Part shown: in pieces, positions 52,749 to 63,930 of the stretch | Layout of the letters: every line of letters begins with the position of its first letter | Numbering within the stretch: position 1 is the first letter of the stretch | Source of the DNA: Methanobacteriota archaeon | Lineage (GTDB): Archaea; Thermoplasmatota; Poseidoniia; Poseidoniales; Thalassarchaeaceae | Direction of reading: 5' to 3' | DNA: 64,000 bases | Assembly (NCBI GenBank): GCA_004195615.1 | Contig: PSPW01000001.1 | Location: 146,881 to 210,880, forward strand | Program-made: the position numbers and the translations under genes | Notes under the pieces: model-generated | The model's database searches: none | What the model saw: only the letters and a program-made list of their open reading frames with translations | Told to the model about the DNA's origin: nothing

Positions 52749-52874
52749 ACCTTCTCCGAACATATACGAACTAGGACATGGTGTAATTGTCGACACCTAA
52801 CATGTTCTGGGACCTTCTCCGAACATATACGAACTAGGACATGGTGTAATTGTCGACACCTAACATGTTCTGGG
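52749..52874. repeat. exact tandem duplication of 63 bases with operator-like motifs
   Basis: Two identical 63-base copies (52749-52811, 52812-52874) lie just before the NirK-like gene. Each contains CCGAACATAT (52756 and 52819) and, 44 bases later, ACATGTTCTG (52800 and 52863), a facing pair of the motif that also occurs at 56.06 kb and 60.39 kb. CGACACCTAACATGTTC in each copy resembles CGACCCTAACATGTCC at 60425. A double operator for the downstream gene is the best explanation. Confidence 0.8.
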
Positions 52875-52916
52875 ATTGGGTAATAGTGGCACCATCATTC
52901 GGAGGGGTGAGAGAAA

Positions 52917-54359
52917 ATGAAACCCAAACTAACTTACAGAATGAAGAATGCAATATTGATGACTGTACTGATGATGGGAGCTCCGCTCCTAGCAGGATGC
53001 AGTGGAGGAGATAGGGACAATGTCTACTGCGGAGAGGGAACAAATCTAGTTGGCAATGAGTGTGTTGGCTACAATGAGGTATCCTTCTTCTTACGTGGAG
53101 AGTCCATGACATATTTCGGCGTGGGAGGGGTTATTGATGAGGTGGAAAATCCCGATTTAGAGGTACAAGTTGGAGACAGGGTTTCGATTACTCTGATAAT
53201 GGGGGAAGTGAATCTGCATGACATCTCTGTGGAGTATTTCAACGTAGCCACTGCAAAGTTATCCGCCCTCGACGATCGAGATTCGTTAACTTTCATTGCA
53301 GATGCAGAAGGGACGTTTGCTTACTACTGTAGCGTTCCGGGGCATAGAGCAGGAGGGATGACAGGGAACATCATTGTTGGAACAGGCCAGGGATGGAGTG
53401 AGAGCGTGGAAGCGCAAATTGGTCCAGCACTGGATGTTGATACAGATGATATTGCCCGGGATCCATTGGACGTGCCACCCCCCACTGGGAGGAGTGAGGT
53501 TTCCGAAGTTCACATCTACATGGAAGCTGTAGAAGTTGTGGCTCAGATAGAAGAAGGTACGACATTCACATACTGGACTTACAATGGGACTGTTCCGGGA
53601 CCTATGTTCCGAGCAAGAGTAGGTGACACCGTATTTGTTCACTTCTCCAATCATGAAGACAGCACCATGCACCATAACGTAGACTTCCATGCTGTTACTG
53701 GGCAAGGTGGTGGAGCTGCAGCCACAGAATCAGCCCCTGGAACAACCTCTACTTTTTCGTTCAAAGCCATGCATCCAGGTCTGTTCGTCTACCACTGCGC
53801 CACCCCCGACATACCTACTCATATCAGCAAGGGCATGTATGGGATGATTATGATAGAACCTGAGAACCCTCTGCCTACAGTGGACAAAGAAATCTACATT
53901 ATGCAAGGGGATATCTACACCAAATGGAGGCCGGGTAGTGCGGGACATCAGGAGTTCGATGACAACGCTCTCTTCGATGAGATGCCGACATATGTGGTGT
54001 TCAACGGAAAATTCGCCACATTTACTGGGGAGTCTACAATCGAAGCCGAAGTTGGGGAAACGATGAGAATATACTTCGGAGTCGGCGGGCCAAACACTGT
54101 ATCTTCGTTCCACTTGATTGGAGAGATCTTTGACAGTGTTTACAATCTCGGAGACTTGGTTAGTGCACCCCTACAGAGTGTCCAGACTGTGCTTGTTGCT
54201 CCTGGTGGCGCAGTAGTTGTAGACGTGACCTTCGACGTACCTGCGAATTACATCTTGGTCGATCATTCGTTAACTAGAGCATTTCACAAGGGTGCAGTGG
54301 GAATCATATCTGTCACTGGAAGTGAAGATCCAACGATAATTGACGACAGTGAAAACTGA
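52917..54359 (+). CDS. copper nitrite-reductase-like protein with N-terminal cupredoxin, lipoprotein
   Basis: Lipobox LLAGC near residue 27 predicts membrane anchoring outside the cell. Residues 55-155 form a cupredoxin with type 1 ligands (YYCSVPGHRAGGM and an upstream His in LHDISV). Residues 195-475 match two-domain NirK: HNVDFHAVTGQGGGAAATESAPGTTSTFSFKA, FVYHCATPDIPTHISKGMYGMIMI, SSFHLIG and VDHSLTRAFHKGA. These supply all type 1 (H, C, H, M) and type 2 (three His) ligands, and the catalytic Asp (HNVD) and His (SSFH). It may reduce nitrite to NO, though a multicopper oxidase use is not excluded. GGAGGGGTGAG precedes ATG 52917. Confidence 0.82.
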   Translation: MKPKLTYRMKNAILMTVLMMGAPLLAGCSGGDRDNVYCGEGTNLVGNECVGYNEVSFFLRGESMTYFGVGGVIDEVENPDLEVQVGDRVSITLIMGEVNLHDISVEYFNVATAKLSALDDRDSLTFIADAEGTFAYYCSVPGHRAGGMTGNIIVGTGQGWSESVEAQIGPALDVDTDDIARDPLDVPPPTGRSEVSEVHIYMEAVEVVAQIEEGTTFTYWTYNGTVPGPMFRARVGDTVFVHFSNHEDSTMHHNVDFHAVTGQGGGAAATESAPGTTSTFSFKAMHPGLFVYHCATPDIPTHISKGMYGMIMIEPENPLPTVDKEIYIMQGDIYTKWRPGSAGHQEFDDNALFDEMPTYVVFNGKFATFTGESTIEAEVGETMRIYFGVGGPNTVSSFHLIGEIFDSVYNLGDLVSAPLQSVQTVLVAPGGAVVVDVTFDVPANYILVDHSLTRAFHKGAVGIISVTGSEDPTIIDDSEN

Positions 54360-54385
54360 GGTTGGTATTTATTGGGGTTTATCCA

Positions 54386-54862
54386 ATGAGAATTGCAGCA
54401 TGGTGGCTAATGGCGATCGTTATTTCTCCATTGGCTTCCGGCTGCCTCCAAATGATTGAAGGTTTCGATTGCGATGATGAGTCTGTTGAATTGAACAGCC
54501 GATGCACACCTGGGAGCTGGAACATTGTTGGAATTGACTTCCAAAGTAATGACAAATTTGAAGTGACGGAAGGCGATCTAGTAAGAGTAGTATTTGATCC
54601 GGCAACCTATGGGCATTATATCCCCAATAGCTTCCATTTAGAAGGTTATGAAATCTCACAGGAGATTCCTCCCAATGAAGTAAGAACATTAGATTTTTTA
54701 GCAGATAAAACTGGCAATTTCACATATTCGAGTTCGGGATTGTGTCGCATAGATATCCCAGGAGCTGGAGAGGTAATGGTGGATTGTTCTATCTTCTGTG
54801 GTGAAACAGAGAATGGGAGAGCAGGAGTCATTTCTGTAATGGATGAAGGAACGAGGGGTTAA
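54386..54862 (+). CDS. cupredoxin-like lipoprotein, CuA-related
   Basis: Signal peptide with lipobox LASGC. The domain after it resembles cytochrome oxidase subunit II: PNSFHLEGYEIS (the CuA His position), LDFLADKTGNFTYSSS, and CSIFCGETENGRAGVISV where CuA has CxxxCGxxHxxM. Both Cys and Gly are kept but the second His and Met are not, so a full CuA centre is unlikely; a different copper or redox-sensing site is possible. ATG 54386 follows GGGG. It begins 27 bases after the NirK-like gene, probably in one operon. Confidence 0.6.
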   Translation: MRIAAWWLMAIVISPLASGCLQMIEGFDCDDESVELNSRCTPGSWNIVGIDFQSNDKFEVTEGDLVRVVFDPATYGHYIPNSFHLEGYEISQEIPPNEVRTLDFLADKTGNFTYSSSGLCRIDIPGAGEVMVDCSIFCGETENGRAGVISVMDEGTRG

Positions 54863-54944
54863 TGGTTGCAGTTTGGGATTGACAATTTGAACAAGCAGAT
54901 GTCAGTAATTGATTGCGAAGTTGAGGATGTTTGAGATCTAGAAT

Positions 54945-55382
54945 GTGGAATTGGAGCATAAGGAATTGATAGGAATGGAAATGTTGCAATTCAATATTGA
55001 CAAAATAATGGACAAACGTATAGTTTCCATGGATATGGAAGCCAACGTCACAGAGACGATGGATGCAATGCACGAAGCCGGGGTTTGGTCAATAATAGTA
55101 ACAAAGGAAGGGAGGCCTGAAGGAGTAGTTACTGAGAGGGATCTATTGAGAAGATGCTTCAGACCTGGATTGGACCCGGATTTAGTCAAAGTTGGGCAGA
55201 TAATGAGTTATCCCCTAGTGACCATAGAAATGGGTCAAACGATCGGTTCGGTTCTGGGCCTATTAATGGTGGATGGGATCAGAAGGGCGTACGTAGAAGA
55301 TAGTGAAGGAGAGATAATAGGCAGGGTCACTCAGACGCAATGCCTCAAGGGGACACTTGAAATAATTATGGCTCTTCGGTAA
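54945..55382 (+). CDS. CBS-domain pair protein
   Basis: Two CBS repeats: IMDKRIVSMDMEANVTETMDAMHEAGVWSIIVTKEGRPEGVVTERDLLRR and IMSYPLVTIEMGQTIGSVLGLLMVDGIRRAYVEDSEGEIIGRVTQTQCL. Such pairs bind adenine nucleotides or NAD and act as regulators. GTG 54945 is the ORF start; ATG 54975, preceded by AGGAAT-like sequence, is possible and keeps both repeats. Position between the copper genes and the oxidase operon suggests a sensor of energy state, which is inference. Confidence 0.8.
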   Translation: MELEHKELIGMEMLQFNIDKIMDKRIVSMDMEANVTETMDAMHEAGVWSIIVTKEGRPEGVVTERDLLRRCFRPGLDPDLVKVGQIMSYPLVTIEMGQTIGSVLGLLMVDGIRRAYVEDSEGEIIGRVTQTQCLKGTLEIIMALR

Positions 55383-55400
55383 TTATTCGAAGAATTATAT

Positions 55401-56003
55401 TTATGCAAATCCGCACCAAAGAGAGTTGGAATTTATTGGGAGAAGTGCTAGATCAATTTCCCAAACGCCTGTCCATCCTGAATCCAAACTTAAGTGTGCT
55501 TCAAATGCAGTAGGGGACCACCCCCCATCATGGTCCAGTGAGAAATGAGAGAAATTAGACTCTCCATTCACCTTTCCCGATAATGTGAATTTCTCTCCGA
55601 ACAATGACATTGAAGAAACTGAATCTAATCCTTTTGAACCGGCAACGCTGATATTTTCCCATTTCCCTTCAGTGCTAAGAGTGGCGAAAAAAATGTCCCT
55701 AGAACCTCTTGATTGGTGAGTGATTTCCCCCAATTTCATTTCCCCTTCCCATGTTCCTGCGATTACTATTTCTCCTCCCCCAAGTCTAATCACTTGGTTC
55801 AATGCCATCTTCCCTTCTCTTACTTCGGCAGGGGTTCTAGCTAGTTCCATTTCCCTTAGAGTGTTAAGTTGCTCTTCAGAAAGTTCATTGGAAGAAACCA
55901 CAATAGAGGCATTTGCTCCAGAAAAAATCAACAGAGGCGAGATTGCCAGGAAAATTGGAATGAAAATCAGGATCATAGGAATAAAGTTGAATTTTTCTAG
56001 CAT
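55401..56003 (-). CDS. secreted or membrane-anchored hypothetical protein
   Basis: 200 residues. A hydrophobic N-terminus (FIPMILIFIPIFLAISPLLIFSGANA) is a signal peptide or anchor. The rest is a small beta-rich extracytoplasmic domain (LNQVIRLGGGEIVIAGTWEGEMKLGEI, DIFFATLSTEGKWENI) with repeated GxxF/G-strand pattern like a partial beta-propeller. No family recognised. It is transcribed opposite to the oxidase operon. Confidence 0.6.
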   Translation of the reverse strand: MLEKFNFIPMILIFIPIFLAISPLLIFSGANASIVVSSNELSEEQLNTLREMELARTPAEVREGKMALNQVIRLGGGEIVIAGTWEGEMKLGEITHQSRGSRDIFFATLSTEGKWENISVAGSKGLDSVSSMSLFGEKFTLSGKVNGESNFSHFSLDHDGGWSPTAFEAHLSLDSGWTGVWEIDLALLPINSNSLWCGFA

Positions 56004-56058
56004 TCAGAATCGTCCCTTCAATGTGTAATATTGGTATTGAAGATTACATTCTCACCTC

Positions 56059-56092
56059 ACATGTTCGGTGTTATCGTAAGTCCCGAACAAGT
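56059..56092. promoter_or_regulatory. facing CCGAACATGT-type motif pair upstream of oxidase operon
   Basis: ACATGTTCGG (56059-56068) and CCGAACAAGT (56083-56092) form an inverted pair, 9 of 10 bases complementary, 24 bases apart start to start. The same motif occurs before the NirK-like gene and before the HTH-10 gene. It lies about 60-90 bases upstream of the first oxidase gene. Confidence 0.6.
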
Positions 56093-56149
56093 AAGGCATC
56101 TCGATAATGGGGTCTACGCTTATTCGAATCCGCAGGGAGCGCTTTGAGC

Positions 56150-56953
56150 ATGCTGAAGATTGCAATAGTCGAAGAAGTTGGAATAAACAAAATGAAGAGT
56201 ATTGGAGAGGTACACAATAGTGCAGCACCGATAATGATGGCCCTAGCAATCACATTGTGCTTAGGAGGCCTTCTATTCTGGCCTTTGGCAGTTATCGGTT
56301 TGCCACTACTGGCATTTTCGATCTTCTCCTGGCTGAGGGAGGAGACTCACCTTTGGCCACACCGTCGGAATCAAGGGGGAACTGGTGAATGGGGGGATGC
56401 ATCTTGGGCGATGTTCTGGATTATTGTCACAGAGTGCATTATCTTCGCATCTTTCTTTGCTTATTGGTTCTGGGCACGATGGCACACGGTTAGCTGGGAC
56501 GGGGCAGTTGGAGGCTCTTGGCCTGCTGACGGAGTGGACCTTAATCTGGAGCTGACTGCACTCAACACGTTGATTCTGATATTTTCCGGCATTCTAGTGG
56601 AGAATGCGAAAAAGAAGCATGCGAATGGAAATTCAAATGGATCAATCGGGACCTTAATGGGAGCCATATCTATGGGCGTAATTTTCCTAATAATCCAATT
56701 GTACGAATACAGTACATCTGGGTTTTTGTGGAGTGATCACCCTTATGGGACTGCATTCTACTCACTTACAGGCCTCCATGGGTTACACGTCCTAGCAGGA
56801 TTGGTTGCATTGGCCGTCATTCTGGTATTGGTTAAAGGTGGAATCCTAGGAGTAGAGAGACATGATGGATTCAGAGCGGTAGCGATGTATTGGCACTTCG
56901 TGGACTTTGTCTGGGTTCTTCTTTTCCTTGTTGTTTACTTGGAGGTGATTTAG
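56150..56953 (+). CDS. coxC: cytochrome c oxidase subunit III
   Basis: Seven hydrophobic helices, with family blocks WLREETHLWPHRRNQGG, MFWIIVTECIIFASFFAYWFWAR, LNTLILIFSGILVENA, SDHPYGTAFYSLTGLHGLHVLAGLVAL and FRAVAMYWHFVDFVWVLLFLVVYLEV, the last with the typical WHFVDxVW. ATG 56150 follows GGGAG; an in-frame TTG at 56144 is possible. The stop overlaps the subunit II GTG by one base. The III-II-I gene order is unusual compared with the common II-I-III. Confidence 0.93.
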   Translation: MLKIAIVEEVGINKMKSIGEVHNSAAPIMMALAITLCLGGLLFWPLAVIGLPLLAFSIFSWLREETHLWPHRRNQGGTGEWGDASWAMFWIIVTECIIFASFFAYWFWARWHTVSWDGAVGGSWPADGVDLNLELTALNTLILIFSGILVENAKKKHANGNSNGSIGTLMGAISMGVIFLIIQLYEYSTSGFLWSDHPYGTAFYSLTGLHGLHVLAGLVALAVILVLVKGGILGVERHDGFRAVAMYWHFVDFVWVLLFLVVYLEVI

Positions 56954-57690
56954 TGTACCTAAGCAAGAAAACGTTCGGACTCATCTCCGGAAGCATTGGA
57001 GTCCTAATATTGACTTTCTTCTCCATTTTCAATTGGGGGCGGGGGCTTGGTGGGACTGGTGCGCACGCAGATGTTTATGACGATCTATTCACCCTATATT
57101 GGGGCCTGGGAACTGTTATTGGCATCGGAGTATATTCCTACTTTCTCTGGTTACTGACGACTTCAACAGATGAAGAAGTAGATGAAATGGTGATTGGGAG
57201 GGACCCCGTAGTAAGAGGGGACAGCAAAGTAGCATTCGCAATTGCATTGATAATCACATTCTTCCTCCTTATTCTCTCTGATGCTACATTCGATTCAATC
57301 GATTTCTTCGAAGAACCCGAAACCAATGAGGACTCATTCACAGTGTTTGTAACTGGATACCAGTACTACTGGGAATACCATTATCCAAATGGGTTAAACT
57401 ACACAAGTTCGAATGGGGGGCCATTACGAATCCCCGTAGACGTCCCTGTCGTCTTCGAAGTAAGCAGTGGTGATGTGTTTCATTCGTTTGCCTTGCCCGA
57501 GCATCGCATCAAAATTGATGCTCTTCCGAGTCGAGCCAACATTGGCTGGATTCTGGCAGAAGAAACTGGAGAATATCCAATTCGCTGCTTTGAGCTATGC
57601 GGAGACTATCACTCTCTCATGATCGGACATCTCGAGGTGATGGAACAGGAGGAATTCGATGCATGGTACTCAGGAGGAATGTCATCATGA
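56953..57690 (+). CDS. coxB: cytochrome c oxidase subunit II (CuA)
   Basis: Electron-entry subunit. Two membrane helices (TFGLISGSIGVLILTFFSIFNWG and FAIALIITFFLLILSDATF) frame a domain with a further N-terminal hydrophobic segment; the extracytoplasmic part has FVTGYQYYWEYHYPNG, GDVFHSFALPEHRIKIDALP and the complete CuA motif CFELCGDYHSLMIGHLEV. The GTG at 56953 overlaps the subunit III stop and is preceded by GGAGGTGA; an ORF to 56890 lies within subunit III. The donor could be a cupredoxin. Confidence 0.95.
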   Translation: MYLSKKTFGLISGSIGVLILTFFSIFNWGRGLGGTGAHADVYDDLFTLYWGLGTVIGIGVYSYFLWLLTTSTDEEVDEMVIGRDPVVRGDSKVAFAIALIITFFLLILSDATFDSIDFFEEPETNEDSFTVFVTGYQYYWEYHYPNGLNYTSSNGGPLRIPVDVPVVFEVSSGDVFHSFALPEHRIKIDALPSRANIGWILAEETGEYPIRCFELCGDYHSLMIGHLEVMEQEEFDAWYSGGMSS

Positions 57691-59849
57691 TTAGCAATAG
57701 AAGAATCCGGACGATAGTTTTCGCATTGGCAATTTCTCTGGCGACGGTTTTCCTCCCCCAGTTATCTGCATATCCGACAGGAACCACGGGGGCAGTTTAC
57801 CATGACGGGTGTACCTGCCATGATCGGTTTGCTTCCGAGGAGGTTGAGATATCTCTCAACGGACTTCCTGAGAGTTTCATTGCCGGTGAGGAATACGTGC
57901 TTGAAATTTCCATCATTGGAGGTCCAGAAGAAGGGGGTGAAAATAGTGGGGGATTCAATATGCGCGTGGATATTGGGACACTGTCCACACTCGACAATTC
58001 GGTTCAAATCTCTGATGGGGAGGCGACACACACTGAATCGGGTAACGACCAGCGAACCTGGGATATCCAGTGGAGTGCCCCTGATTCGGATTCTCAATGG
58101 GCATCATTCGTAGTCATTGGAAATTCCGTGGACGGGGATGGAATCAATGATCAGGATGACTCCTGGAATATACAAAAATTCGAATTGTCTGGGCAGAATG
58201 CACGTTCTGGATTGCAAATTGATATCGATGAGCCAGCTTGGCTAGTCATTGTTGGTTCCCTACTATCGATTGCTATTCTCATCATATTGGCACTCTGGAG
58301 GAATGAAGTCTTTGGGATGAATGAGTTGAAACACTGGCTCACCACTACTGATCACAAGGATATCGGAGTGCTTTACCTATGGGCATCGATAATCTTCTCG
58401 GCCATTGGACTGGCACTTTCCGTGTTAATTAGGCTACAGTTAGTTATCCCTGATAACTCGTTCATGACGGGGGGATTATACAACGAAGCAGTAACCATGC
58501 ATGGTGCAGTGATGGTTCTTTTTGCCATCTCTCCGATGGCCTTCGCATTTGCAAATTACATTGTCCCTCTACAGATTGGAGCTAGGGACATGGCTTTCCC
58601 GAGATTGAATGCTCTTTCTTTCTGGACTTTGGTTCTGGGGGGGCTTACGGCTGCATCTGGTTTCTTCTTTGGTGGTGCTGCCGATGTTGGTTGGACGTTC
58701 TATTCGCCATTAACCGATATTGAATACACCCCCGGGTCAGGGGTCTCGCTAGCTGGGGCTGGATTGGTGCTCCTGATTATCTCAGTAACTGGTTCAACGA
58801 TAAACTTCCTAGTCACCATTCTCCGCCACAGAATCCCCGGGATGGATATGCGGCAGATGCCCATGTATACTTGGAACATCCTGTTCACAGTTATCTTGAT
58901 GCTGATAATTTTCCCAGCTCTATTTGGCGCTGTTCTGATGCTAATTGGCGACCGTTTCTTCGATACTCTATTCTTCCATCCAGATATCGATGGGACTACG
59001 TGGTGGTTGCACATCTTCTGGTTCTTCGGTCATCCTGAGGTCTATGTCGTCCTCCTACCTGGACTTGGGATGGCGATGGAAGTCGTCCCCACTTTCGTGA
59101 GGAGAGAGCTTTATGGACGGAATGTCATTATCTGGTCATTGGCTGTTGCAAGCATCATCAGCGTATTGGTATGGGCGCATCACATGTTCATTACAGGAAT
59201 TGATCCGACATTCCGAAAGCTTGAGACGATTGGTACTGAACTGGTCAGCGTCCCATTTGGACTGATTTACCTATGTCTACTTGCAACCTTCTACAAGTCA
59301 AAACCGGATTTCAGCAAACTTCCACTAGCCTTTGTCATGGGGGCGATTGGAATTTTCCTGATAGGTGGAATAACAGGAGTTTACCTCTCCAGTGTTGCCA
59401 TGGATGTGCAACTAAGGGGGACTTACTATCTCGTGGCCCATTTCCACTACACCCTTGGTTCAGTCGCCGTTATGACGCTAGGGGGGATTTACTACTGGTA
59501 TCCCAAGATCTTCGGAAGAATGTTGGACGAGGGTCTCGGTTGGTGGCACTTCTGGTTGACTTTTCTAGGAATTAATATCACATTCATCCCTCTTTTCGGA
59601 TTGTGGGACATGCCAAGGAGAATCTACGTATATCAAGAAAGTGCAGGATGGGGAGATCAGCAACTAGTCTCAACAATAGGGTCAATAATTGTCTTCGTGG
59701 CTCAGCTAATTTTCTTCTGGAACTTCACGAGAAGCATGCACAAAGGGGAAGTTGCTGGGAATGATCCATGGGGGGGCACGACCTTTGAATGGTCTACTTC
59801 TTCTCCGCCGCCGAAGCACAACTTCGAGAAACTTCCAGAAATGAATTAG
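57687..59849 (+). CDS. coxA: cytochrome c oxidase subunit I fused to an N-terminal extracytoplasmic domain
   Basis: 720 residues. After a signal peptide, residues 30-170 form a choice-of-anchor-V/Reeler-like domain: DGCTCHDRFASEEVEISLNGLP, GGFNMRVDIGTLS, FVVIGNSVDGDGINDQDDSW. The oxidase follows: TMHGAVMVLFAISP (low-spin heme His), FWFFGHPEVYVVLLPGLG (CuB His, Glu, cross-linked Tyr), WAHHMFITGIDP (CuB His pair) and VAHFHYTLGS (heme His). The usual K-channel segment reads VSVPFGLIYLCLLAT, without Thr and Lys. ATG 57687 overlaps the subunit II stop (ATGA). Confidence 0.93.
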   Translation: MISNRRIRTIVFALAISLATVFLPQLSAYPTGTTGAVYHDGCTCHDRFASEEVEISLNGLPESFIAGEEYVLEISIIGGPEEGGENSGGFNMRVDIGTLSTLDNSVQISDGEATHTESGNDQRTWDIQWSAPDSDSQWASFVVIGNSVDGDGINDQDDSWNIQKFELSGQNARSGLQIDIDEPAWLVIVGSLLSIAILIILALWRNEVFGMNELKHWLTTTDHKDIGVLYLWASIIFSAIGLALSVLIRLQLVIPDNSFMTGGLYNEAVTMHGAVMVLFAISPMAFAFANYIVPLQIGARDMAFPRLNALSFWTLVLGGLTAASGFFFGGAADVGWTFYSPLTDIEYTPGSGVSLAGAGLVLLIISVTGSTINFLVTILRHRIPGMDMRQMPMYTWNILFTVILMLIIFPALFGAVLMLIGDRFFDTLFFHPDIDGTTWWLHIFWFFGHPEVYVVLLPGLGMAMEVVPTFVRRELYGRNVIIWSLAVASIISVLVWAHHMFITGIDPTFRKLETIGTELVSVPFGLIYLCLLATFYKSKPDFSKLPLAFVMGAIGIFLIGGITGVYLSSVAMDVQLRGTYYLVAHFHYTLGSVAVMTLGGIYYWYPKIFGRMLDEGLGWWHFWLTFLGINITFIPLFGLWDMPRRIYVYQESAGWGDQQLVSTIGSIIVFVAQLIFFWNFTRSMHKGEVAGNDPWGGTTFEWSTSSPPPKHNFEKLPEMN

Positions 59850-60353
59850 TCAGATTATGCCCCCTCGGATTACGGAAACTCCTAGGAGAAAAATCGTAAG
59901 AGAAAGTATTAGATTTACGCGGGCAAAAGTTGATGCGCGTCTTCTTAATTTTCTTGACTCATCGCAGTCACCCTTCTCTGTAAGGCACTTGATTGCCCTG
60001 GGGCCGAAATAGAAATCATGTAATGCCGCCGATATGAAAAGCAGAGCCCCTCCAATCATCTTCCATGCGATTGTGCTAGCTGGTGGATTAGAATGACCCC
60101 CTGCATTGGTGAAAGAATCCCATCCAACAATAATATCAGAGAGGAAGATTCCGGTAATTGAGACGGTCAGGAGGCATGCCCAACCCAACCATCGGAATCT
60201 CAATCCTACATCATTGAGGAAGATAAGATACTCCTCTCGGCTATACTTTTTCTTGGAGTACGGGACTAGGATGGTGACGAAGAAAATCATTGAGCCGATC
60301 CAGATTGCTGCGCCAATGAGGTGCAAGAAGGAAATCATGGTCCAGTTGAGCAC
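59850..60353 (-). CDS. CopD-like four-helix membrane protein
   Basis: 167 residues with four hydrophobic segments: ISFLHLIGAAIWIGSMIFFVTILVP, FRWLGWACLLTVSITGIFLS, IAWKMIGGALLFISAALHDFYFG and LILSLTIFLLGVSVIRGG. The N-terminal His within FLHLIGAAIWIG and the ALHDF His resemble the CopD / heme-binding DUF2214-like proteins. It may take part in copper or heme handling for the oxidase it converges on (one base after its stop). GTG 60353 is the start; ATG 60338 is possible. Confidence 0.6.
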   Translation of the reverse strand: MLNWTMISFLHLIGAAIWIGSMIFFVTILVPYSKKKYSREEYLIFLNDVGLRFRWLGWACLLTVSITGIFLSDIIVGWDSFTNAGGHSNPPASTIAWKMIGGALLFISAALHDFYFGPRAIKCLTEKGDCDESRKLRRRASTFARVNLILSLTIFLLGVSVIRGGII

Positions 60354-60389
60354 ATTATTGTTTCAGAGATCAATAGTTAGAATTCGGTC

Positions 60390-60442
60390 CCGAACATGTT
60401 CGTGACGAAAGTAATCGACCGGGACGACCCTAACATGTCCGA
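60390..60442. promoter_or_regulatory. CCGAACATGT motif pair and palindrome upstream of HTH-10 gene
   Basis: CCGAACATGT (60390-60399) lies within the exact palindrome CGAACATGTTCG (60391-60402). A facing partner ACATGTCCGA (60433-60442) stands 43 bases away, almost the same spacing as the 44 bases in the tandem copies at 52.75 kb. CGACCCTAACATGTCC (60425-60440) matches CGACACCTAACATGTTC there. The site lies between a divergent gene pair, as for an operator controlling both. Confidence 0.65.
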
Positions 60443-60541: not shown

Positions 60542-61270
60542 TTGAATAGGTTCATGTTGACCAAACAATGGTTAACTAAATTGCAACACATTCTGATTTC
60601 GGTTCGACTGCCAGAAAACCACTGGGCAGGAGACTCCACGAGGCAATTCCCTCACATAAAGATCACAATTGATGAGCACATGCCACTACCAAAGGGACGT
60701 GGTTCTGCAATTGGTAGAATCTATGGAAGAGACCTATCTAGAATCAGGTCAACTCTGGAAGAGCATCAAGGGATAGAGTCGATTTCATTCTTCGGACAGA
60801 ACGATGAGTGCTTAGAATTCAATATCGTTGTATCGAGAGGAGGAGGTGGATTCGTTCGTCCTCTAATTGAAGCGGAAGTAGTGCCGCAGACTCCTTTCTC
60901 AGTTAGCGATGGTTGGGTCGAATGGGAGTTTTCTACTGACAGGCAGCACGTCAAAGAATTGGTTGGACATCTCAAGAATAGTGGATTGCCTCACAAAATA
61001 CACTCATTGACCAAGGAGGTTACAGAACGCTTGCTGACGCCCCGGCAGCGGGAAGTTCTCGATTTGGCTATAGAATCGGGATTCTACGATTCTCCTAGGA
61101 AAATAACATTGACAAGTCTCGCAGATATTTCCGGAGTATCGAAATCGACACTATGCGAGATGGTTCAGCTAATCGAGAATCACATTGTTCACGAATACCT
61201 GGGAGACATCAGAAGAAGGAGTCCCAAGGAAAAAAAAATTCATAGTAATAATGTAACAAAGAGTGATTAA
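60542..61270 (+). CDS. HTH-10 (bacterio-opsin-activator type) transcription regulator
   Basis: 242 residues. The C-terminal HTH-10 domain is clear: LTPRQREVLDLAIESGFYDSPRKITLTSLADISGVSKSTLCEMVQLIENHIV. The N-terminal 160 residues are a beta-rich domain with HIKITIDEHMPLPKGRGSA and IVVSRGGGGFVRPLIEAEV, as in halophile Bat-like regulators but without a visible PAS or GAF signature. TTG 60542 is supported by AGGAGGGG six to thirteen bases upstream; the ATG between them hits a stop at once. It is the nearest candidate for binding the shared CCGAACATGT motif. Confidence 0.85.
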   Translation: MNRFMLTKQWLTKLQHILISVRLPENHWAGDSTRQFPHIKITIDEHMPLPKGRGSAIGRIYGRDLSRIRSTLEEHQGIESISFFGQNDECLEFNIVVSRGGGGFVRPLIEAEVVPQTPFSVSDGWVEWEFSTDRQHVKELVGHLKNSGLPHKIHSLTKEVTERLLTPRQREVLDLAIESGFYDSPRKITLTSLADISGVSKSTLCEMVQLIENHIVHEYLGDIRRRSPKEKKIHSNNVTKSD

Positions 61271-61295: not shown

Positions 61296-62438
61296 ATGGC
61301 AGATTCAGAGGTAGTTCAGAACTATCCTACGAACTTTGAAACATGGATAGATGAATTCAAGGATTGGCAGACACGGATTGGATTCGACCCCTCGTGGTTG
61401 GGAGATTACAGGTTTGATATCAAGTTCGATTGGGACACAGCAGGAAAAGAGATTGAGTTCGGAGATTTCGAAGGGATGCCAAAGTGGGATCGGAGGATGC
61501 AGATCCCCCAACAGAACATCATGGATGCGATAATCACCATGGTGAGTGTCCAAGGAGATACTGAGTTTGCAAGCGTTGAGCAGCAGAATCACCTATTGGA
61601 TACTGCGCCCACAGAGTATGACAAGAAGTCAGCACTTCGGATAATGTGCGAGGAGCAGAGGCACGGATGGCAGATGGCTTACCTTCTTTGCACTTTCTTC
61701 GGGGAACAGGGAGTCAGAGAGGCTGCGAAGCTACTAGAGAGAAACGCACAAGAGGGAACGAGGATCCTAGGTTCGTTCAACGAGCCAATAGATCACTGGC
61801 TCGACTTCTTCATGTTCACGCACTTCATTGACAGAGATGGCAAATATCAGTTGAAGATGCTCAGTACTTCGTCTTTCAAGCCCCTAGCTGCCAGTATGGG
61901 TCCGATGCTCAAGGAGGAATCTTTTCACCTAGGCACAGGAGCAAATGGGCTCAGGAGAATAGTAAAGCGGGGTGTGATTCCATGTGCTCTCGTCCAGAAG
62001 TATGTGAACAAGTGGGTCAGTACCGGACTAGATTTGTTCGGAACGGATGACTCGACCAGCGCGCAATGGGCTTACGTCTACGGGATCAAAGGGCGATACG
62101 ACGAGAGGGAATCGGGAGTGTCAGCGGACAGGGAGCATCTGAACGAAGCCAGTAGGGACCTCTACTTCCAAGAGTTGAGAGAGGAGATGCGGAGGATAAG
62201 TAATGCACGCAAAGAAGGTGAACCAGAGCTCTACATCCCATCCGACAAGTTCCGAAGAGGAATCGGGAAATACTCTGGAATGAACTTCACCGTAGAGGGT
62301 GCCCCTTTCGAGGGCAGCGACCAAGAATGGAAGGAATACCTAGCCACCGTGCTACCAACAGAGGAAGACGAGGATAGGCTGATTAACGACTACTTGAAGC
62401 AGGAATGGATCCAGTATAGAGAGTGGAAGGGCAACTGA
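61296..62438 (+). CDS. BoxB-like di-iron oxygenase (aromatic acyl-CoA epoxidase family)
   Basis: The ferritin-like di-iron core is visible: VQGDTEFASVEQQNHLLDTAPTEYDKKSALRIMCEEQRHGWQMAYLLCTFFGE with EExxH, GSFNEPIDHWLDFFMFTHFIDRDGKYQLKML and the second MLKEESFHLGTGANGLRRIV with ExxxH. The FNEP..DWL.FFMFT.F.DRDGK.QL pattern follows benzoyl-CoA 2,3-epoxidase BoxB more closely than PaaA. At 380 residues it is shorter than usual BoxB (about 470). ATG 61296 follows GGAAAG; a GTG at 61263 is in frame but overlaps the HTH-10 gene. Substrate is inferred only. Confidence 0.75.
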   Translation: MADSEVVQNYPTNFETWIDEFKDWQTRIGFDPSWLGDYRFDIKFDWDTAGKEIEFGDFEGMPKWDRRMQIPQQNIMDAIITMVSVQGDTEFASVEQQNHLLDTAPTEYDKKSALRIMCEEQRHGWQMAYLLCTFFGEQGVREAAKLLERNAQEGTRILGSFNEPIDHWLDFFMFTHFIDRDGKYQLKMLSTSSFKPLAASMGPMLKEESFHLGTGANGLRRIVKRGVIPCALVQKYVNKWVSTGLDLFGTDDSTSAQWAYVYGIKGRYDERESGVSADREHLNEASRDLYFQELREEMRRISNARKEGEPELYIPSDKFRRGIGKYSGMNFTVEGAPFEGSDQEWKEYLATVLPTEEDEDRLINDYLKQEWIQYREWKGN

Positions 62439-62453: not shown

Positions 62454-63017
62454 ATGCAGCATGTCGCTTTGACACTATTCGACAAGGACCTGTGTCGACC
62501 ATTCTTCGATAGGGTCACCACACTATTTCACAAACACCACCACTCCATTGAACAGGATCCTAGTGGGTACGAGAATCTCTTGTACAGGGTTTATCGCCCA
62601 TACACTCCAGAGATGCTTGACACAATTGATCGGTGGATGGATCTCGGAGAGAGGACATGGAGTGCGGAGACGCAAAGGGAGGTTCTTCTATCCCTGTACG
62701 CTATCCGCTATCCGGACACACTGCTGATTGAGAGTCTCACTGACAATGCTAGATCTGACATCCGTAGACTCTCCGCATACCTACACTTCACACATCACAC
62801 ATACTCAATTTGGGACGAGGACACAAGAAAGGGGCTGGGCAGACTAGGGATTGACCTACCAAAGATGGAGGAGGCTGATCCATTCGTTTACGGAGCATAC
62901 ATTTCTTCAATCGAGCTTCTGAAGGACGTCGCCCCTTTCACCTGCTTCCTAGAGCACGACGTCCCTCGGCAGAGGCTGTTCCAGTCTGCTCTGGCCGCAT
63001 ATGGCCGCGAAGGTTAG
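62454..63017 (+). CDS. helical protein of unknown function, downstream of BoxB-like gene
   Basis: 187 residues, mostly helix, rich in His (FHKHHHSIEQ near residue 29, LHFTHHTYSIW near 112, FLEHDVPRQ near 166) and Trp. No metal motif of a known family. It starts 15 bases after the oxygenase stop and overlaps the possible long form of the dehydrogenase by 17 bases, so all three are probably one transcript. Could be an accessory protein of the oxygenase; that is inference. Confidence 0.6.
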   Translation: MQHVALTLFDKDLCRPFFDRVTTLFHKHHHSIEQDPSGYENLLYRVYRPYTPEMLDTIDRWMDLGERTWSAETQREVLLSLYAIRYPDTLLIESLTDNARSDIRRLSAYLHFTHHTYSIWDEDTRKGLGRLGIDLPKMEEADPFVYGAYISSIELLKDVAPFTCFLEHDVPRQRLFQSALAAYGREG

Positions 63018-63051
63018 CACTGCTTATTTCCCGACAGACTATCCGGCACTC

Positions 63052-63930
63052 ATGACGATTCGCAGAGTGGCAGTAATAGGTGCTGGCACCATGGGTTCAG
63101 GAATAGCCCAAGTTAGTGCTCAGACTGGATGGGATACTCGGCTTTTCGACGCCTTTCCTGATTCACTGGAGAATGGCATGGAGAAAATTAACGAATTCTG
63201 GGATAAAGGAATCTCCAAGGGGAAGACTAGTCCCCAGCAGAAGGAGGTTTGGTCAGCCAACCTTAGAGCCACCAGTGAAATGTCAGACGCGGTGGAAGAT
63301 TCAGATATTGTAATAGAAGCGGTTCCGGAGAGGATGGAGCTCAAAAGAATGATTTTCAATGAATTAGAGGGTCTAGCACCTTCGAGTGCGATACTTGCAA
63401 CGAATACATCTGGACTCCCAATCTCGGGGATTGCGTCGCATACAGGTTGTCCAGAGAGAGTGATAGGGATGCATTTCTTTAACCCGGTTCCATTGATGCA
63501 GCTTCTGGAAATCGTTCGCCATGAATTGGTAGACGAAAGTACAGTCTCTACGGCGAAGGAAGTTGGAGAGGCCATGGGTAAGACGACAATTATCGTACGA
63601 GATATACCCGGATTCGCTACGAGCAGATTGGGAGTGGTCCTAGGAAATGAGGCAATCAGGATGTTGGCAGAGGGAGTGGCTTCGGCAAGTGATATTGACA
63701 CTGCAATGCGCTTGGGCTATCGGCACCCGATGGGACCGCTAGAGTTGTCAGATCTTGTGGGCCTGGACGTTAGAAGGGACATATTGAACAGTCTTGCAGA
63801 TGCTTTTGATGATGAGTCTTACAGGCCTCACCCACTTCTGAGAAAGTTGGTGGATTCGGGAGATCTAGGAAAGAAGACGGGTAGGGGCATCTACGATTGG
63901 ACTTCAGGTGAGAAAGTAGAGAGGGAGTGA
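63052..63930 (+). CDS. 3-hydroxyacyl-CoA dehydrogenase
   Basis: NAD-dependent oxidation of 3-hydroxyacyl-CoA. It begins MTIRRVAVIGAGTMGSGIAQVSAQTGW with the Rossmann motif, has VIEAVPERMELK, ATNTSGLPISGIASHTG with the family ATNTSSLPI motif, IGMHFFNPVPLMQLLEIVR with the catalytic-region His and the Asn, and the C-terminal AMRLGYRHPMGPLELSDLVGLDV. Length (292 aa) is that of the short Hbd type. ATG 63052 gives the canonical start; ATG 63001 would add 17 residues and overlap the preceding gene. Confidence 0.93.
   Translation: MTIRRVAVIGAGTMGSGIAQVSAQTGWDTRLFDAFPDSLENGMEKINEFWDKGISKGKTSPQQKEVWSANLRATSEMSDAVEDSDIVIEAVPERMELKRMIFNELEGLAPSSAILATNTSGLPISGIASHTGCPERVIGMHFFNPVPLMQLLEIVRHELVDESTVSTAKEVGEAMGKTTIIVRDIPGFATSRLGVVLGNEAIRMLAEGVASASDIDTAMRLGYRHPMGPLELSDLVGLDVRRDILNSLADAFDDESYRPHPLLRKLVDSGDLGKKTGRGIYDWTSGEKVERE

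Follow-up and report, generated by a model that had tools for sequence, protein, structure and literature searches.

A putative HTH_10-linked operator precedes nitrite reductase, accessory oxidase and BoxB-like units in a Poseidoniales archaeon

In a 64,000-nucleotide stretch of a Thalassarchaeaceae genome (Poseidoniales; contig PSPW01000001.1 of assembly GCA_004195615.1), hereafter the window, one short motif recurs in three intergenic regions that precede genes for a copper nitrite reductase, a cytochrome oxidase and a transcription regulator. An initial annotation read this layout as a small electron-transfer regulon, in which the HTH_10 protein controls its own gene and two copper-dependent units. 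The locus raises the question of whether these sites are one operator, which protein reads it and to what signal the genes answer. The genes concerned, in window coordinates, are as follows.

52917–54359, plus strand: nirK, a copper nitrite reductase whose N-terminus carries an extra cupredoxin domain (TIGR02376; match to PDB 2dv6)
56150–56953, plus strand: accessory cytochrome c oxidase subunit III (PF00510)
56953–57690, plus strand: accessory cytochrome c oxidase subunit II (PF00116)
57687–59849, plus strand: accessory cytochrome c oxidase subunit I, which carries a choice-of-anchor V domain at its N-terminus (PF00115; NF041895)
59850–60353, minus strand: divergent CopD-like membrane protein (PF05425, 32.7 bits, barely above the cut-off of 32.1)
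60542–61270, plus strand: HTH_10 transcription regulator, the proposed operator reader (PF04967, 57.5 bits; orthologues, co-occurrence, structure model)
61299–62438, plus strand: BoxB-like (PaaA/PaaC superfamily) di-iron epoxidase, right behind the HTH_10 gene (PF05138)
62454–63017, plus strand: uncharacterised gene kept behind the BoxB-like gene (synteny; no Pfam match)
63001–63930, plus strand: 3-hydroxyacyl-CoA dehydrogenase of the same conserved cluster (synteny)

NirK scored above the TIGR02376 equivalog cut-off (359.9 versus 296.3 bits), and its best PDB match was 2dv6, over residues 63–476, with the extra cupredoxin domain aligned too; the 2dv6 enzyme has an N-terminal cupredoxin like that of the window protein, but belongs to another organism group and has no link to this regulation. 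Two heme-copper oxidase (PF00115) genes were found in the genome, both at cytochrome oxidase loci. Because a second COX1 thus lies elsewhere and the COX3 orthologue is restricted to genomes with the HTH_10 gene, the cox genes of the window were classed as an accessory oxidase. The protein encoded behind HTH_10 reached 217 bits against a TIGR03225 equivalog cut-off of 499, and is therefore filed as BoxB-like rather than as the BoxB benzoyl-CoA epoxidase. Gene spacing suggests that HTH_10, the BoxB-like gene and the genes downstream form an operon under the third site. The choice-of-anchor V domain of COX1 spans 57687–58250 (NF041895, 91 bits); in many relatives (e.g. L157:9381–9947) a separate choice-of-anchor V gene lies between COX1 and HTH_10, in the position that the CopD-like gene has in the window.

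The operator boxes and the elements that accompany them, all on the plus strand, are listed below; the roles of the promoter-like elements are putative.

52749–52875, plus strand: exact 63-bp tandem duplication in which each copy holds one nirK operator pair (Tandem Repeats Finder, 100% match, 2.0 copies)
52757–52768, plus strand: nirK distal box, copy 1, CGAACATATACG, two mismatches to the core
52797–52808, plus strand: nirK proximal box, copy 1, CTAACATGTTCT, with its centre 40 bp from that of the box at 52757
52820–52831, plus strand: nirK distal box, copy 2
52860–52871, plus strand: nirK proximal box, copy 2
52881–52886, plus strand: promoter-like TAATAG, starting 16 bp past the centre of the nirK proximal box (28-promoter alignment)
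56056–56067, plus strand: cox distal box, CTCACATGTTCG
56084–56095, plus strand: cox proximal half-box, CGAACAAGTAAG
56105–56110, plus strand: promoter-like TAATGG, 16 bp past the centre of the cox proximal box
60391–60402, plus strand: exact core CGAACATGTTCG, before the HTH_10 unit and, on the other strand, before the CopD-like gene
60412–60417, plus strand: promoter-like TAATCG, 16 bp past the centre of the HTH_10 operator
60430–60441, plus strand: second HTH_10 box, CTAACATGTCCG, 39 bp downstream of the first and near the expected transcription start

In the window, the operator unit is a palindrome of 12–14 bp, CCGAACATGTTCGG, with CGAACATGTTCG as its core, and since the unit is palindromic each site is one symmetric box. 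The facing pairs of a 10-base motif described in the initial annotation are all present, and every site named there was found at its position in the three intergenic regions, but each member of a pair is itself a palindromic box. The 10-mer itself occurs exactly twice in the window (56059 on the minus strand and 60390 on the plus strand), the remaining named sites having one mismatch each. Allowing up to one mismatch, 11 matches were found in the window compared to a mean of 3.1 in shuffled sequence, and none of 100 shuffles reached 11 or more. The two pairs credited to nirK were rejected as independent sites, since the region is an exact tandem duplication; the independent loci therefore number three, not four. 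The spacing of 44 and 43 bases noted for nirK and HTH_10 corresponds to 40 bp and 39 bp from box centre to box centre, with 28 bp at cox. The 39-bp spacing before the HTH_10 unit also occurs in four relatives (L157–L160), but cox spacing varies so widely among relatives that we rejected the idea of one constant distance between paired boxes. The nirK and cox boxes are variants with two to three mismatches, and the box at 60391 is exact. Each of the three sites separates a pair of divergent genes, and the 60391 palindrome is hence also ~43 bp before the minus-strand CopD-like gene, which is probably a further target. The three units of the initial annotation (nirK, cox and HTH_10) hence stand, with the third enlarged by the BoxB-like operon and probably by the CopD-like gene.

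The source genome (1.63 Mb in 50 contigs, 92% complete) was searched for the same motif. CCGAACATGTTCGG as a 14-mer with up to two mismatches occurs at seven places, three within ORFs and four intergenic, and these four are the three loci of the window with nirK counted twice. Exact copies of the 10-mer GAACATGTTC number four, one intergenic (60392) and three in ORFs; a perfect copy near the main oxidase (C11:219720) was considered as a regulon site and rejected because it lies within an ORF. In the window, a single 12-mer match with up to two mismatches (35922) falls outside the three loci. The motif, which might have been as frequent inside genes or in random gaps, is thus rare and intergenic here. 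It is close to certain that the sites in the three loci are one and the same operator.

Conservation was assessed in 60 genomes, the window's own and 59 relatives assigned to Thalassarchaeaceae by record titles. An HTH_10 orthologue was present in seven (the window's own and six at 48–58% identity), and all seven had palindromes within 8 kb of the gene. For the 16 genomes with a palindrome match and no HTH_10 gene, the first match checked in each was inside an ORF (16/16), often a recurrent one of ~400 aa, and these matches were rejected as further regulons. Across nine related loci, the core with up to one mismatch was found upstream of COX3 in eight and upstream of the gene preceding HTH_10 in all nine, with 59 other half-site permutations giving 0 matches at these positions. 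The motif is therefore kept at the same loci in relatives, a check that had been proposed together with the original claim. At nirK, one relative has the gene at a different chromosomal place, still with two boxes 50 bp apart (G047/L148), another has a weaker, 3-mismatch box ~50 bp upstream (G031) and the orthologue in G012 (L146) has a half-site only. A very close relative (G021, L101; 98% identity in the flanking enoyl-CoA hydratase) is without nirK, cox, CopD and most of HTH_10, which are absent as one block, while the boxB genes persist. What is left of HTH_10 is a C-terminal remnant located between the enoyl-CoA hydratase and boxB (L101:9780–9990), and no operator remains at the site of the module. 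The layout resembles a naturally occurring loss of the module, or may reflect a misassembly. A scan of named genomes gave 13 loci of the window type, labelled Thalassarchaeaceae, Thalassarchaeum, Poseidoniales or Euryarchaeota. The titles of several module-bearing genomes (ETNP1, ETNP7, Arabian9 and SI053/SI054, the last of which we take to refer to Saanich Inlet) suggest an oxygen-poor origin.

In the sister family, a Poseidoniaceae-type HTH_10 protein has 39–49% identity to that of the window, and boxB again follows directly. The exact core was present in the HTH_10–boxB gap of 54 of 65 such loci, rising to 60 of 65 with up to one mismatch; permuted palindromes gave 0 matches in the same 65 gaps. 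The box-linked site is the common form in this family. Among the 38 Poseidoniaceae-type genomes searched, none had nirK and one had the accessory cox genes. As the site in this family is at boxB, with nirK absent from the searched set and accessory cox found once, a respiratory signal would not be universal. Many Poseidoniaceae-type loci (L170, L174 and L182, for example) have two operators 14 bp apart in the HTH_10–boxB gap, the first of which overlaps the HTH_10 stop codon.

The same operator is known from haloarchaeal denitrification. In Haloferax mediterranei the denitrification motif is CGAAYATDKTYG, with the nosZ and nor versions being exactly CGAACATGTTCG and the nirK version CGAATATGTTCG; when its first base is changed, the nosZ and nor promoters become less active, and the motif is linked to induction under anoxia (PMC10062603). 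The authors of that study report that the genome has no NarO homologue, and suggest one shared regulator yet to be identified (PMC10062603). A later paper draws attention to an HTH_10 gene, E6P09_00735, located within a 12.5-kb nirK–nor cluster that has eight motif copies; the gene itself bears the motif (PMC11218638). This cluster resembles the window in its core, in an HTH_10 gene placed under the motif within the cluster, in NirK as a target and in having several motif copies within ~10 kb. The window differs in its accessory aa3-type oxidase and BoxB-like operon, and belongs to another archaeal lineage.

Our own sequence comparison covered relatives from Haloferax larsenii and other haloarchaea. 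A tblastn search with the window HTH_10 protein matched haloarchaeal plasmids, and nirK-linked proteins aligned over most of its length at ~24–30% identity. Such a homologue was within ~10 kb of nirK in 8 of 10 haloarchaeal nirK loci examined. In these ten loci, the core with up to one mismatch occurred 22 times in 23.7 kb of intergenic DNA versus once in 127.6 kb of coding DNA, and permuted palindromes gave about zero matches. Eight further loci, chosen by the regulator and not by nirK, had 11 intergenic and two coding matches; one of the latter (L254) counts as coding because the annotated start codon slightly precedes the box. Half of the 16 haloarchaeal homologues had a box 45–55 bp before their own start, L254 becoming a ninth after correction; the set includes L256 and L258, which have no annotated nir, nor or nos gene in their vicinity. 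At up to one mismatch, six of the 16 had no near-start box (L243, L244, L249, L252, L255 and L257), and in L250 the box is merely 7 bp from the start. Haloarchaeal homologues with the operator adjoin genes for nirK, nor, nosZ, multicopper oxidase or halocyanin, and not box genes. At one locus, in Halomarina sp. BND7 (L241:3177), the operator precedes an aa3-type oxidase gene with nirK and HTH_10 close by, as in the window.

The strongest evidence at hand that the HTH_10 protein reads the operator is that the self-operator accompanies its gene, and binding to this operator is very likely. The window shares with the haloarchaeal regulon the CGAAYATDKTYG operator (as the exact core at 60391), boxes directly upstream of nirK and a homologous full-length HTH_10 protein with a self-box. 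A PF00115 search of the source genome (92% complete) found no NO-reductase-type heme-copper enzyme. With nor genes absent among the targets, the system is therefore a variant, and not a plain member, of the haloarchaeal regulon.

HTH_10 is the only domain above cut-off in the 242-aa window protein, and no PAS or GAF domain reached cut-off. Sixteen Poseidoniales orthologues share a conserved N-terminal region, in which no conserved Cys was found in the first 150 residues. A structure model (mean pLDDT 86, pTM 0.58) has two domains followed by a C-terminal HTH; by our own reading of strand and helix order these domains would be ferredoxin-like. A Foldseek search of the PDB with this model returned a weak match only (5m86, TM 0.40) and revealed no ligand. 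In nearly all operator-linked proteins the recognition region is [AST]KST, and in two paralogues it is ARST or APTT. A tree of the HTH_10 proteins was poorly supported and did not separate haloarchaeal and Poseidoniales sets forming one clade from exchanged ones.

Alignment of 28 promoters on the operator revealed TNATNG at +16 to +21 from its centre (A/T 93% at +16, G 71% at +21), a pattern that is supportive and carries no formal test, the promoter-proximal box having been picked by hand. At +45 to +49 the same promoters are G-rich, resembling a ribosome-binding site. Poseidoniaceae boxB promoters, aligned separately, have a comparable TAAGG at ~+16. Haloarchaeal boxes lie mainly 45–55 bp before start codons, or at 73–75 and 87 bp. 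In leaderless haloarchaeal transcripts, a box at 45 bp would be positioned immediately before the TATA region, where an activator is expected to bind.

Taken together, these observations suggest a mechanism in which a dimer of the HTH_10 protein (60542–61270) would bind the CGAACATGTTCG palindrome just upstream of the core promoter. With the operator centre 16 bp before the TNATNG element, binding would most likely activate transcription, a direction to which box position and the Haloferax mutants both point. Activation would most likely occur under low oxygen or with nitrogen oxides present, and nirK, the accessory aa3-type oxidase operon, the HTH_10–boxB-like operon and probably the divergent CopD-like gene would be its targets within the window. 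The second HTH_10 box, 39 bp downstream of the operator and near the expected transcription start (in the window and L157–L160), suggests autorepression, so that negative autoregulation is probable. Overall, an autoregulating HTH_10 activator of a low-oxygen or nitrite respiration regulon, reading CGAACATGTTCG, is a likely interpretation of the locus; the regulon first proposed, with HTH_10 acting on its own gene, nirK and cox, is supported in this form, the binding step being predicted. It would be the Poseidoniales counterpart of the regulator–operator pair seen at denitrification clusters of haloarchaea. Points against this interpretation are the six haloarchaeal homologues with no near-start box, the persistence of the boxB genes in G021 after loss of the regulator gene, the half-site at nirK of G012, the boxB location of the sister-family site and the absence of a NarO-like Cys cluster.

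Haloarchaeal precedent and gene content make a low-oxygen or nitrogen-oxide signal the probable one, and we hold with moderate confidence that the regulon answers to it; the box-only layout in Poseidoniaceae leaves room for an aromatic-CoA signal. HTH_10 would then still read the operator, but respond to an aromatic acyl-CoA, the substrate or product of the BoxB-like pathway, with nirK and cox having joined later. In Poseidoniaceae-type loci the regulator indeed has the boxB operon as its conserved neighbour, the operator occupying the gap between the two in 60/65, and the tandem ferredoxin-like domains of the model would suit binding of a small ligand. However, haloarchaeal homologues with the same operator are found at nirK, nor, nosZ, multicopper oxidase and halocyanin genes rather than at box genes, and G012, which has no boxB beside the regulator, keeps its cox operators, so that we regard this signal as unlikely. 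It is a little less likely again that a different DNA-binding protein reads the palindrome and the HTH_10 gene is merely a target. A second HTH_10 protein is encoded in the genome (C11:57604) and the Haloferax mediterranei regulator is formally unproven, but proteins of this second type occur in relatives without operator clusters, whereas the self-operator stays with HTH_10 across two archaeal lineages with differing neighbours.

A copper-responsive circuit would account for the copper link of three of the window units, given that NirK, Cox and CopD need or handle copper. Yet the most conserved site precedes the gene of a di-iron enzyme family, the HTH_10 N-terminal region has no conserved Cys and the Haloferax motif is tied to anoxic induction, which together make such a circuit very improbable; a copper-only regulon was rejected on account of the site at the BoxB-like gene. 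Chance, or a general promoter or repeat element, could be suspected from the partly degenerate and tandemly duplicated nirK sites, but permuted palindromes were close to zero in all sets tested and the sites are confined to intergenic DNA and conserved across lineages, leaving this explanation a negligible probability.

Among known systems, NarO of Haloferax volcanii, also of the HTH_10 family, reportedly regulates denitrification genes when oxygen is low. At its N-terminus NarO carries a Cys-rich sensor motif, and its gene adjoins the nar operon, not nirK or cox. The window regulator has the HTH_10 domain in common with NarO, whereas the Cys cluster is absent from it and its orthologues. The same DNA-binding domain is shared with Bat/DmsR (the 'bacterioopsin activator' family), and a haloarchaeal homologue of the window protein matches the Bat-associated domain PF15915, but Bat has PAS and GAF domains before HTH_10 and the 242-aa protein has neither.

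Marine Group II archaea are abundant and uncultured. In the open-access papers searched, we found nothing on the regulation of respiration in Marine Group II archaea, and no description of such a regulon in Poseidoniales. The present analysis provides a concrete Poseidoniales regulon with a defined operator and named carrier lineages, and names the HTH_10 protein family expected to read the published haloarchaeal denitrification motif, making the proposed circuit testable. On balance, we favour the idea that the HTH_10 family and CGAACATGTTCG form a respiratory switch, ancient or transferred, common to haloarchaea and Poseidoniales, whose reader would be the as yet unproven regulator of nirK, nor and nosZ in haloarchaea and which would have been re-used in Poseidoniales for an accessory oxidase and a probably oxygen-dependent ring-epoxidase operon. 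A bacterial parallel is a SAR11 nirK–cbb3 region from low-oxygen water, where nirK and a terminal oxidase likewise occur together in a streamlined marine microbe; with its cbb3-type oxidase, it parallels the window in gene content only (PMC12816887).

Two further loci bear on the distribution of these proteins. At L183, tandem HTH_10 paralogues occur, one by an accessory cox operon and the other by boxB, and an exact operator core adjoins each of them. A contig labelled Deltaproteobacteria (AH-558-G13; L212) encodes a Poseidoniales-type HTH_10 protein with 39% identity, which may reflect contamination or transfer.
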